Shown here: positions 17,203-23,268 of the stretch, one piece after another
Layout of the letters: every line of letters begins with the position of its first letter
Position numbering within the stretch: position 1 is the first letter of the stretch
From: Fimbriimonadaceae bacterium
GTDB taxonomy: Bacteria; Armatimonadota; Fimbriimonadia; Fimbriimonadales; Fimbriimonadaceae
DNA: 37,673 bases
Reading direction: 5' to 3'
NCBI GenBank assembly: GCA_022843485.1
Contig: JALHNM010000015.1
Location: forward strand, 1-37,673
Made by a program: the position numbers and the translations under genes
Notes under the pieces: generated by a model
The model's input: only the letters and a program-made list of their open reading frames with translations
Databases searched by the model: none
Told to the model about the DNA's origin: nothing

Positions 17203-17964
17203 GTGCTCCAGAGCCCCGGACTCTTGCCCGCGACCGACGGGGTCCTGCGGCATGCGGCCGAGATCGCCCTGGACTGCCGGCGCCGTCTCGTCCGCGAACT
17301 CAAGCCGGACGGATCCATGGTGACGAACGCCGACCGCGAGGTGGAGGCCTACTGCAGGCGGGCCCTGACGGAGGCCCTCCCTGGCAGCACAGTCTGGGGC
17401 GAGGAAGAGGGGTTCGAGGAGCCGGGGCCCAACGGACTTTGGCTCGTCGACCCGATCGACGGGACGACCAACTTCGCCTTCGGGCAACCCCTCTGGGGCA
17501 TCACGATCGCGCTGTGGAGAGAGGGGGCGCTGCAGGTCGGGGCCGTTTGCCTGCCCGACCTCGACCGTTGGTTCCTGGCCGAGCGCGGTCGGGGCGCGAC
17601 GTGCAACGGCCTCCCTCTGGCCCCCGTCTCGCCGAACCCGATCCGCCAGGAAGAGCTCATCGGGCTCGCCGACGACAGCCCAGGGCCGTTCCGGGGCCTA
17701 GGGGGCAAATCCCGGCATGTCGGCGCCTTCGTCGTTGAGGCAATGTTCGTAGCACTGGGCTACTACAGAGCGATGACGGCCACCCGATGCAAGCTCTATG
17801 ACGCCGCCGGGAGCCTCGTTATCTTGCGGGAGCTCGGTGCACGGGTCGTGACTGCGACGGGCGAGGGCTTCGACGACGGTCGCTACGTCCGTCCCGTGCT
17901 GTGCGAGCCGTTCGCGGTCGTCCCGCAGGGGGCCCTACCCCTGCAACGCCCGGCCGATCTCTGA
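17203..17964 (+). CDS. Inositol monophosphatase family phosphatase
   Basis: 253 residues of the Mg-dependent, Li-sensitive phosphatase superfamily. Motif A is WLVDPIDGTTNFAFG (about 86-100) and is preceded by the metal-binding EEE of GEEEGFEEPG. The C-terminal signature is YDAAGSLVILRELGA (W/Y-D-x-A-A-G). Substrates in this family include myo-inositol-1-phosphate, histidinol phosphate (HisN) and 3'-phosphoadenosine-5'-phosphate; sequence alone does not decide which. The GTG start at 17203 lies 5 nt after a -10-like element. The last 30 bp overlap the convergent selenoprotein candidate. Confidence 0.88.
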   Translation: MLQSPGLLPATDGVLRHAAEIALDCRRRLVRELKPDGSMVTNADREVEAYCRRALTEALPGSTVWGEEEGFEEPGPNGLWLVDPIDGTTNFAFGQPLWGITIALWREGALQVGAVCLPDLDRWFLAERGRGATCNGLPLAPVSPNPIRQEELIGLADDSPGPFRGLGGKSRHVGAFVVEAMFVALGYYRAMTATRCKLYDAAGSLVILRELGARVVTATGEGFDDGRYVRPVLCEPFAVVPQGALPLQRPADL

Positions 17965-18438
17965 GACGGGCGGGTTGTCCGAGGCGTCACGGCTCCGGTG
18001 GGCCCAGACGACCTCACCGTCCTCAGGCGCCAGCACGAAAACCCCCGGCATCCGCCAAGGGTCCCCGATCGGACGCCCGACCCGGTGGCCCTCCAAGGTC
18101 GCCACAACCCCGGCGGCGAAGACTCGGCCCGAGAACATCTGCTTCGTCGTCCCGCGGGCCAAGCCGAACTGCTCATACAGCCGGGCCTCCGGGTCGCAGA
18201 CGAAGCGGTGCGGGGATCGCATCCTCGTCCGGAACTCCTCGGCCTCGTCTGGGCTCGCCATCGCCACGAAGACGACGTTCCAATCGGCGTGGGGGCGCAA
18301 CTGCGCCACAAACCGGCGGCAGAACACTCACCCGAAGTGGCGCAGGAACACGAGGGCGACCCGGCCGTCGGCGTACGTCTTGGACAACTCGGAATGGCTT
18401 CCATCGCTCCAGGCGACGGTGACGCTCGGTGCCCTCAT
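17935..18438 (-). CDS. Probable selenoprotein: AhpC/TSA-type thioredoxin-fold redox protein with UxxC active site
   Basis: The reading frame from ATG 18438 to TAG (17937-17935) is 167 residues if the in-frame TGA at 18330-18328 is read as selenocysteine (U37). The start is MRAPSVTVAWSDGSHSELSK, followed by strand VALVFLRHFG, then U-V-F-C and RRFVAQL. This is the strand-CxxC-helix of AhpC/TSA_2-type proteins related to SelL and PRXL2/SelU, which use CxxC, UxxC or UxxU. Homology-like sequence continues normally on both sides of the TGA: FVAMASPDEAEEFR, then VCDPEARLYEQFGL and GVFVLAPEDGEVVWAHRS. SECIS-like hairpins follow the TGA. A gene caller would report only 17935-18327 from the GTG right after it. 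It lies 49 nt downstream of dnaG. A Cys-to-stop pseudogene is the main alternative. Confidence 0.82.
18289..18322 (-). promoter_or_regulatory. Candidate bacterial SECIS element
   Basis: Two mutually exclusive hairpins follow the TGA. The first (18322-18301) pairs CTG/CAG and CGCC/GGCG around loop GGTTTGT, with a bulged C; its loop starts 13 nt after the TGA. The second (18309-18289) pairs GTG/CAC and GCGC/GCGC around loop AGTT, with a 3-nt bulge; its loop starts 25 nt after. Bacterial SECIS hairpins usually have a G among the first loop bases and a loop about 16-37 nt from the UGA, which favours the second. Confidence 0.5.
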
Positions 18439-18487: not shown

Positions 18488-20251
18488 TTAGTCGACCGGG
18501 CCCCCACCCTTTCTGCTTTTGAGCCGGGCGGAGTAGGCCTGGAGGGCGTCGAGATCGACGGCGGCATGGGACGTCGCCGACTGGCGGTCTCTGTCCTCAG
18601 CCCTCTCCCTCAAGCGGGCCAGGGCGTCCCGCAGACCGACCTCGCCCACCTGCAAGAGCTCACGCTTCGGGGCCAGCGGGACCTCCACGACCATCCCCGC
18701 GAGCGCCGCCCGGGCCTCGACCGGTTCGAGCCGGTTGAGCCAAGCCGAGGGAGGCCCCTCCGGTGGACCATCGGGGAAGGCCTCGGCCACGCTCGCCGCC
18801 AGACGGGAACCCTCGTCCGTGTAGAAGAGCCGGGGCTCGCGACAGGCGGCCCAAGCCTCAGCCCGGAGGTCGTCTGCGAGGAGTGCCCGGAGCACGGCCG
18901 CCTCGGCGTTCCCCATTTTGAGGCGCCGGGCCCTGACGCTGGGCCGGGCCGTGCGCCGAGACCCTCGGGGGGCGACCTCGGGGGTCGGCAGGAGGTCGCG
19001 CACCATCGACTCGAGCGCAGTGCGGGCCGTGCCGAGGTCTTTCGTGAAGGGGTAGCGCAGGGCGAGCACGTCGATCTGGCGAGCACGCTCTATGGGGTCT
19101 CGTGCTCGGGCCAGAGCCTTAGCCGCCTCGCCCCAGAACTCTCGGCCGCCCGGGTCGTGGGCCCTCGCGGCCGCCTCCACCCGAAACTCAAGGACCGACA
19201 CCGTGCCGTCGACCGCGCGGAGCACGGCGGCGGGCCCGTCCCTGCGGAGGAGGGTGTCGGGGTCCTCGCCCTGGGCCATCTGTGCGACCCGCACGTCGAG
19301 GCCGCCCGCTTCCAGTACGGTGGCGGCTCGATCGGTGGCCTTCTGCCCCGCCGGATCGGCGTCGTACAGGACGACGACCCGGTCGCACCAGCGCTTGAGC
19401 AATCGTGCGTGGTCCTCGGTGAGCGAGGTCCCGAGGCTGGCGACGGCGGTCTCGACCCCAGCCTTGTGGCAGGCCATGACGTCAAGGTAGCCCTCTACGA
19501 GCACGGCCTGCCTCGCCTTGGCGATCGCGTCCTTGGCGCGGTGCATGCCGTAAAGCACCCGGCTCTTGGAGTAGAGCGGCGTGTCGCTACTGTTGATGTA
19601 CTTCGGCTGTCCGTCGCCGATGATCCGTCCTCCAAAGGCCACGAGCCGTCCCCGTTCGTCGCGGATCGGGAACATCAGCCGGCCGCGGAACCGGTCGAAG
19701 AACCCGCCGGTGGAGTCCTCGTCGACGAGGAAAAGCGCACGAGCTTCGGCCAGGCTGAACCCAGCCTTTTGGAGGGTTGTGGCGAGGGCGGCGTTGACGC
19801 TCGGGGCGAACCCGATCTCCCACCGCTCGAGGGTGCCAGGGTCGAGGTCCCGGCCCGAGCAATAGGCTTTCGCCTCGGCCGAGAGCTCGAACTGCCGCCG
19901 GAAGTAGGCGAGCGCGGCGTCCATCGCCCCCTCCTGCTTCTCGGCGAGGGAGGGGTCTTTCTTCGACCGGCTCTGAAGCTCGACCCCGGCCGCCTTCGCG
20001 AGGATCCGCAGGGCCTCGGGGAACTCGACCCGCTCGGTGTTCATGACCCAATCGAACACGTCGCCTTGGGCCCCACAAGACCAGCATTTGTACCAGCCGG
20101 TCTCTTGGTTGACGGTGAACGAGGGATTACGGTCGTCGTGGAAGGGACAGAGCCCCTTCCACGACTTCCCCGCTTTCTTCAGCGCGACCCGTTGTTGGAC
20201 GAGCGCGACCAGGTCGGTGCGTGACCGGACCAGGTCGACGTCGTCCGCCAT
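18488..20251 (-). CDS. dnaG: DNA primase
   Basis: Makes RNA primers at the replication fork. 587 residues. The N-terminal zinc domain is CHC2 type with C35, H38, C56 and C59 (GLCPFHDD and YKCWSCGAQGD). The RNA polymerase domain has FPIRDERGRLVAFGGRIIG, and the Toprim part has VLVEGYLDV and VVLYDADPAGQKA. The C-terminal helicase-binding part is divergent, as usual. It starts 10 nt after the end of a Gly-rich secreted protein gene. rpoD, its usual partner, is not adjacent. Instead the probable selenoprotein lies 49 nt downstream. Confidence 0.96.
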   Translation of the reverse strand: MADDVDLVRSRTDLVALVQQRVALKKAGKSWKGLCPFHDDRNPSFTVNQETGWYKCWSCGAQGDVFDWVMNTERVEFPEALRILAKAAGVELQSRSKKDPSLAEKQEGAMDAALAYFRRQFELSAEAKAYCSGRDLDPGTLERWEIGFAPSVNAALATTLQKAGFSLAEARALFLVDEDSTGGFFDRFRGRLMFPIRDERGRLVAFGGRIIGDGQPKYINSSDTPLYSKSRVLYGMHRAKDAIAKARQAVLVEGYLDVMACHKAGVETAVASLGTSLTEDHARLLKRWCDRVVVLYDADPAGQKATDRAATVLEAGGLDVRVAQMAQGEDPDTLLRRDGPAAVLRAVDGTVSVLEFRVEAAARAHDPGGREFWGEAAKALARARDPIERARQIDVLALRYPFTKDLGTARTALESMVRDLLPTPEVAPRGSRRTARPSVRARRLKMGNAEAAVLRALLADDLRAEAWAACREPRLFYTDEGSRLAASVAEAFPDGPPEGPPSAWLNRLEPVEARAALAGMVVEVPLAPKRELLQVGEVGLRDALARLRERAEDRDRQSATSHAAVDLDALQAYSARLKSRKGGGPVD

Positions 20252-21252: not shown

Positions 21253-21576
21253 ATGGCTGCCAACCTAGCTGTCTCGACATCCAACTTCGACTCCGAAGTC
21301 CTCCAGTCCGACGTCCCCGTGCTCGTCGATTTCTGGGCCGCCTGGTGCGGCCCGTGTAAGGCCATCGCCCCTCACGTCGAGGAACTCGCCGACGAGATGG
21401 CGGGCCAGGCCAAGGTCTTCAAGGTCGACGTCGACCAAGAGGGCGACCTCGCCATGAAGTACGGCATCATGTCGATCCCAGCGCTCATCGTCTTCAAGGG
21501 CGGCCAAGAGGTCGACCGCATGGTTGGGGCAGGGAGTAAGGACCAGATCAAGAGCCTTCTTTCCCGCCACGTCTGA
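21253..21576 (+). CDS. trxA: Thioredoxin
   Basis: 107 residues, the normal length. It is a cytoplasmic protein-disulfide reductant. The active site WCGPC has C32 and C35 after strand VPVLVDFWAAW. The cis-proline is in MSIPALIVF, and the C-terminal helix is standard. ATG 21253 is chosen: AAAGG is 7 nt upstream and the fold starts correctly, although the frame is open further upstream. The minus-strand gene downstream encodes a thioredoxin-reductase-like fusion, but that protein lacks the CxxC that would reduce thioredoxin. Confidence 0.97.
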   Translation: MAANLAVSTSNFDSEVLQSDVPVLVDFWAAWCGPCKAIAPHVEELADEMAGQAKVFKVDVDQEGDLAMKYGIMSIPALIVFKGGQEVDRMVGAGSKDQIKSLLSRHV

Positions 21577-21594
21577 ATCGGGGAGCTCGCTCGG

Positions 21595-21616
21595 GGCCCC
21601 ATTGGATTGGGGTGCC
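21595..21616 (+). terminator. Hairpin between convergent trxA and the reductase-like gene
   Basis: GGCCCC (21595-21600) pairs with GGGGTGCC (21609-21616), with one bulged T, around a loop of about 8 nt. It lies 18 nt after the trxA stop and 14 nt before the end of the minus-strand gene, so it could serve either. No T-tract is seen. Confidence 0.35.
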
Positions 21617-21630
21617 GGCCTTGAGCGCGG

Positions 21631-23268
21631 TCACTGTCCAGCGAGGATTTGATGGACGAACGAGACGGCCATCGAGCCCTCGCCTACCGCGCTCGCGACC
21701 CGCTTGACGGATCCCGACCTCACATCGCCCGCAGCGAAGACCCCCGGGCACGTCGTCTCGAGCAGGTGCGGGTCGCGGGCGAGGGGCCACGACCCGGAAG
21801 CCTGCGCCTCGGCGCCGGATAGGATAAAGCCTTTTGCGTCTGTCTTGACCGTATCGGGGAGCCACTCAGTCCGGGGGGACGCCCCGATCATCACGAAAAG
21901 GCCGACCAAGTCGAGCGTCCGATTCTTCCCGGTCTCAGCGCAGAGCACAGTAGCCCGTTCCAGACTCGGTTCCCCCTCGATACAGACGACCTCCGAGTTG
22001 AGGAGCACCTCGATGTTGGGCGTTTGCTCGATCCGATTGACTAAGTACGCCGACATCGTCTTCCTCAAATCGCCGCCTCGGACGACGAGGAAGACCTGGC
22101 GCGTGCGCTCCGAGAGGTACACGGCGGCTTGCCCGGCCGAGTTACCGGCGCCGACGACGGCCACGGCCGCCCCCACGCAGAGTATCGCCTCTACGTGGGT
22201 GGCGGCATAGTACACGCCTTGGCCTTCGTACTTATCGAGATCCGGCACGTAGAGCCGACGATAGCTCGCCCCGGTGGCGACGATGACGCACCGCGTCGAG
22301 AGCTCGGTCCCGTCGTCGAACCGGAGGCGGTGGACACCCCCACCACAAGTCATCCCGACGACCGTGGCCGGGGTCACGAACTGAGCCCCGAACTTTTGGG
22401 CCTGGACCACCGCCCGACCGGCCAAGTCTGCCCCGCTCAGCCCCAGCGGGAAGCCCATGTAGTTCTCGATCTTGCTACTCTGTCCGGCTTGCCCACCGGG
22501 GCCCTGCGTGTCGAGGACGACAGTCTGGAGGCCCTCGCTCGCGCCGTAGACGGCCGTGGCCAAACCGGCCGGGCCCGCACCGATCACCGCAAGGTCGTAA
22601 GTCACTCGCTCGATCGGCCTCGCAAGTCCGGCCGCGAGGGCCAGAGCCGCGTTATCGGGTCGGCGCAGCACCGTGCCGTCGAGAAAGATGACGATCGGTG
22701 TATCGTCGATCCCTATCTCAAACCTGTCCAGAAGCGCATGAACCCCCGGATCGGCTTCAACGTCGAGCCAGGTGAACGGAACCTCGTTCTTGGCCAGGAA
22801 CTCTCGGATCCGTAGGGTGTCCTTACTGACGCGCGAGCCTACGACCCGGGCCCCGAGGAACGCCCCCTGGAGCAGCAAGACCCGCCGCTGCAGGAACGCC
22901 CTCAGGATCACGTCGCTGATCGAAGGCACCTCATTGACGATCCGGCGCAGGCGCTCGGGGCAGACCTCGAGCACCCGCGTCCCGGGACCGGCGATCGCGG
23001 TGACGACCGCGGGACGGCCCGTGATCATGTCCACGTCCCCCGTGAACTCGCCGGGCTCGTGGACCGTGACCAGTCGTGGCTCGCCGCCGGACGACTCCCA
23101 GATCCCGACCGTCCCGCTCACCACGATGTAGAAGCTAAAGCCGGTGTCGCCCGCCTTAAAGAGTGCCTCACTGGGCGCGCACTCGCGAGGTTCGGTGAAT
23201 CGTGCGAGCCCGTCGATCTGGTCCGGGGAGAACACGGGAAAGGCGATGGTGTCGCGCGGCTCCGTCAT
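21631..23268 (-). CDS. cNMP-binding / thioredoxin-like / thioredoxin-reductase-like flavoprotein fusion
   Basis: 545 residues with three parts. Residues about 10-125 form a cyclic-nucleotide-binding (Crp-type) barrel with GEFTGDVDMITGRP. Residues about 140-215 form a thioredoxin/glutaredoxin-like fold (IREFLAKNEVPFTWLDVEAD, then TPIVIFLDGT) without a CxxC. Residues 222-545 form a low-Mr thioredoxin reductase fold with FAD motif GAGPAG (230-235), GGQAGQSSKIENY, NAD(P) motif GAGNSAGQ (373-380) and FAAGDVR near the end. Where thioredoxin reductase has CATC, this protein has AATH (355-358), so it cannot use the usual disulfide. Fusions of this kind are known in other bacteria, but their substrate is not established. 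The frame begins 5 nt after a TAGAAT element. Confidence 0.88.
   Translation of the reverse strand: MTEPRDTIAFPVFSPDQIDGLARFTEPRECAPSEALFKAGDTGFSFYIVVSGTVGIWESSGGEPRLVTVHEPGEFTGDVDMITGRPAVVTAIAGPGTRVLEVCPERLRRIVNEVPSISDVILRAFLQRRVLLLQGAFLGARVVGSRVSKDTLRIREFLAKNEVPFTWLDVEADPGVHALLDRFEIGIDDTPIVIFLDGTVLRRPDNAALALAAGLARPIERVTYDLAVIGAGPAGLATAVYGASEGLQTVVLDTQGPGGQAGQSSKIENYMGFPLGLSGADLAGRAVVQAQKFGAQFVTPATVVGMTCGGGVHRLRFDDGTELSTRCVIVATGASYRRLYVPDLDKYEGQGVYYAATHVEAILCVGAAVAVVGAGNSAGQAAVYLSERTRQVFLVVRGGDLRKTMSAYLVNRIEQTPNIEVLLNSEVVCIEGEPSLERATVLCAETGKNRTLDLVGLFVMIGASPRTEWLPDTVKTDAKGFILSGAEAQASGSWPLARDPHLLETTCPGVFAAGDVRSGSVKRVASAVGEGSMAVSFVHQILAGQ

Follow-up and report, generated by a model that had tools for sequence, protein, structure and literature searches.

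An AhpC/TSA family protein (pfam13911) with the motif UxxS is listed among the predicted prokaryotic selenoproteins, together with Prx-like selenoproteins (UxxC or UxxU) and a Redoxin selenoprotein (UxxC) (PMC9312934). These entries are repeated under cd02970, PF00578 and PF08534 in a second listing (PMC13188914), and the NCBIfam family NF040769 is not named among the selenoproteins of either. SelL is likewise a Prx-like selenoprotein (PMC2398784). For the phylum Armatimonadota, a narrow literature search (Armatimonadota with selenocysteine; Fimbriimonas with selenoprotein) returned no selenoprotein paper, which is not proof of absence, and the gene described here adds one predicted member.

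This gene is located on the minus strand of a 37,673-nucleotide stretch of DNA from a Fimbriimonadaceae bacterium (the whole stretch analysed, hereafter the window). Judging from its sequence and that of its relatives, it very probably encodes a Prx-like, SelL-related (AhpC-TSA_2) selenoprotein of 167 residues (17935-18438), in which a UGA codon specifies selenocysteine 37.

Reading frame, family and predicted fold

Direct reading of the minus strand shows a frame that is open from ATG 18438 to TAG 17935 except for a single TGA at 18330-18328, as the preliminary description had proposed. When this TGA is read through, the predicted product is MRAPSVTVAW...VALVFLRHFG-U37-VFC40-RRF...ALQG. A much longer start is not available, because the same frame contains a TAG four codons ahead of the ATG. 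The standard ORF list contains just the segment 17935-18327, a 130-aa ORF whose start is the GTG directly after the TGA; this is the truncated call that had been anticipated. Routine annotation thus truncates this gene, and the selenoprotein reading corrects the gene model. The TGA (18328-18330) corresponds to the first residue of a UxxC active site, whose presumed resolving residue, Cys40, is encoded by the TGC at 18319-18321. The segment from R33 to C40 is invariant across 32 aligned proteins from several phyla when Sec is scored as Cys, in part because the loci were fetched with the pattern RHFGCVFC.

Once the TGA is translated as a residue, the protein fits PF13911 best among the Pfam families (AhpC-TSA_2; 46.7 bits, gathering cut-off 27). 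It also passes the cut-off for Redoxin (30.4 bits for 26.6), whereas it remains below that of AhpC-TSA PF00578 (22.7 bits for 26). The NCBIfam profile NF040769, SelL-related redox protein, is matched over positions 2-170 of 173 with 142.6 bits, above the curated cut-off of 120. A phmmer search of PDB sequences gave no match, and the fold was therefore predicted. The AlphaFold model, in which Cys replaces Sec, has a mean pLDDT of 97.3 and places residue 37 after a strand (27-31) and just before a helix (38-47), where a peroxidatic or thioredoxin-type residue of the active site usually sits. Compared with the PDB, the model is closest to human prostamide/prostaglandin F synthase (PGFS), a CxxC protein, in its C44S/C47S form with both Cys mutated (E 7.5e-09, TM 0.79-0.80). 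We take PGFS to be PRXL2B, a protein of the PRXL2 group. The next matches are PrxQ/Bcp, AhpE and ResA. The model thus has the features of the PRXL2/SelU fold group, namely a peroxiredoxin-like fold with CxxC or UxxC at the first active-site helix. The family originally suggested, AhpC/TSA_2 with SelL and PRXL2/SelU relatives, is supported by the Pfam and NCBIfam matches and by the fold search.

The gene lies immediately downstream of the primase gene dnaG on the same strand (18488-20251), and its 3' end overlaps by 30 bases a convergent gene of the inositol monophosphatase family (17203-17964, plus strand). Further along the window, a thioredoxin with the motif WCGPC (21253-21576, plus strand, start taken from the ORF list; Pfam Thioredoxin 6.1e-32) could be a reductant, and it adjoins a minus-strand gene (21631-23268) coding for a thioredoxin-reductase-like pyridine nucleotide-disulphide oxidoreductase. 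The latter protein is fused to a cNMP-binding domain at its N-terminal side. As a reductant context for the selenoprotein, this pair (21253-23268) is suggestive only.

Selenocysteine machinery, homologues and hairpin

The genome that carries the window (2.96 Mb, 98.8% complete, draft of 20 contigs) harbors all four components whose presence had been proposed as a check. SelA is found at 5.2e-120 with an intact ORF (Pfam SelA 399.8 bits), SelB scores above the NCBIfam cut-off and has the C-terminal SelB winged helix (SelB-wing_3), SelD is above its cut-off, and a tRNA-Sec with anticodon TCA lies at C1:351703-351792 (72.3 bits). An in-frame TGA is also present in selD, at the active site of the product (MRLTHLVACAGUASKLGP; L077 1498-1551, in the own genome on C1 near 550246), so that at least two selenoproteins are predicted in this genome. 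In selB (L068, near 1490), no ATG, GTG or TTG precedes the conserved G1 motif, and after a TAG the frame opens with CTG GCA CGG CTC ATC GGC; this CTG may therefore be the start codon.

Homologues were matched in 52 of 85 genomes of the family and in 81 of 291 genomes of the phylum, and among the named contigs the best matches belong to Fimbriimonadaceae and Armatimonadetes, which points to Fimbriimonadaceae as the probable family of the window. The codon in the U37 column was read in 44 homologues of the phylum, the window gene included: 17 have TGA and 27 have TGC or TGT. The TGA thus aligns with the first Cys of CxxC, as had been claimed, and the column holds either Cys or TGA in sequences that show no sign of decay. 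Chance is a very poor account of such a frame, because homologues with 31-61% identity align on both sides of the TGA and the codon recurs in the same column in this proportion of homologues. Within the family, selA is present in all 11 genomes with a TGA copy and in 20 of the 39 with a Cys (no-stop) copy (Fisher P 0.0035, a value uncorrected for relatedness, since the sequences are related and not independent). In one genome of the phylum with a TGA homologue (G174, locus L168), selA was not detected; this genome is just 73% complete, and the missing gene most likely reflects an incomplete assembly. A scan of contigs gave 79 Cys to 1 Sec, a ratio biased to Cys because one of the patterns spelled RHFGCVFC and for that reason not used as a frequency.

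Bacterial SECIS elements have a small apical loop that contains a G (Sargasso Sea paper, PMC1088965). A SECIS-shaped search of the window gene predicts such a hairpin just downstream of the UGA (18285-18315, minus strand; -14.5 kcal/mol). Its apical loop occupies 18302-18299 and has the sequence AGTT, the G of which lies 27 nt past the UGA. When the gene is recoded synonymously, just 2.5% of the resulting sequences fold as well. Hairpins of this type are stronger in TGA than in Cys homologues (medians -10.2 vs -6.1 kcal/mol; Mann-Whitney P 0.0003, again from related, non-independent sequences). Moreover, nine TGA genes share the hairpin loop at the same offset with some compensating stem pairs, and the stem covariation is 0.214 vs a shuffled mean of 0.116. 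In two TGA homologues (L004 and L012), the hairpins are no better than those of their own synonymous recodings. Simple folding of the 51 nt from the TGA onward gave a result no better than that of shuffles, and the signal appeared only with the SECIS-shaped search and the synonymous-recoding control.

Alternative readings and apparent Sec/Cys exchange

A TGA that interrupts a frame may also be a nonsense mutation, and the gene would then be a fresh pseudogene truncated at this codon. The interruption is real, but the protein pattern is intact on either side of it, 16 other homologues in the phylum have TGA in the same column while the remainder have Cys, and the genome contains a full Sec system. 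These observations lead us to reject the pseudogene, which we regard as highly improbable. The same holds for a TGC or TGT misread as TGA through a sequencing or assembly error. The assembly is indeed a draft in 20 contigs and TGC differs from TGA by one base, but many independent genomes from relatives that use Sec carry this TGA as well, and a SECIS-type hairpin follows it here, so that this explanation was also discarded as highly improbable.

Finally, translation could restart at GTG 18327 and yield the short protein that the standard ORF caller reports. Such a product would lack the catalytic residue and the first strands of the fold, since strand 27-31 and residue 37 of the model both lie upstream, and the 5' half that it leaves out is conserved among homologues. 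We therefore reject this restart as well and consider it very unlikely. The reading of the UGA as Sec, giving U37-V-F-C40 as first put forward, is strongly supported by the Sec machinery, the conserved TGA/Cys column and the predicted hairpin.

Sec and Cys appear to have replaced each other repeatedly. Parsimony on a tree of 40 proteins gives 9 changes, at least three of which are forced by well-supported branches, and the protein nearest to that of the window (in G008) carries Cys. The second active-site Cys is replaced by Ala in two homologues of the phylum, ULFA in G039 (L007) and CLFA in G014 (L017); the presumed resolving Cys is therefore not always kept, with UxxA in the former and CxxA in the latter. 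The reading that Sec and Cys have been swapped repeatedly in this family in Armatimonadota, above all in Fimbriimonadaceae, with loss of the second Cys in these two related proteins, is in our view about as likely as not. If it holds, the family would offer a natural series in which to study the advantage conferred by Sec and the need for the resolving Cys. The repeated exchange is in itself useful material for comparing both residues.

Proposed mechanism and comparison with known selenoproteins

The frame, the Sec machinery, the conservation of the column and the predicted hairpin and fold are shown by the present analysis, and a scheme of synthesis and catalysis can be proposed. SelB with Sec-tRNA(Sec) would recognise the hairpin, which starts about 12 nt past the UGA, and Sec would be inserted at residue 37 instead of termination. 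The protein probably acts as a thiol/selenol oxidoreductase or a peroxidase, in which Sec37, placed at the N-terminal end of the first active-site helix, would attack a peroxide or a disulfide, then form a selenenylsulfide with Cys40 and finally return to the reduced state, perhaps through the thioredoxin system.

The window protein shares the active-site column of NF040769 and PF13911, whose curated cut-offs it passes, but has Sec where these families have the first Cys. It belongs to the same Pfam family as the listed AhpC/TSA selenoprotein and also has Sec at the U of UxxX; however, the listed protein is UxxS and the window protein UxxC, so that a Pfam family given solely with UxxS in PMC9312934 and PMC13188914 gains a predicted UxxC member. 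With the listed Prx-like and Redoxin selenoproteins it has in common a Sec-containing UxxC and a peroxiredoxin-like fold, and it passes the Redoxin cut-off, whereas it stays below the PF00578 cut-off and fits PF13911 best. Eukaryotic SelU/PRXL2 proteins resemble it in fold, human PGFS being its closest solved structure, but at about 19% identity. Moreover, SelU/PRXL2 and SelL genes have their SECIS in the 3'-UTR, whereas the predicted hairpin of the window gene is of the bacterial type and lies inside the reading frame. With its UGA almost certainly read as Sec, the gene is a real, if rather unremarkable, representative of a kind of selenoprotein that is already known.
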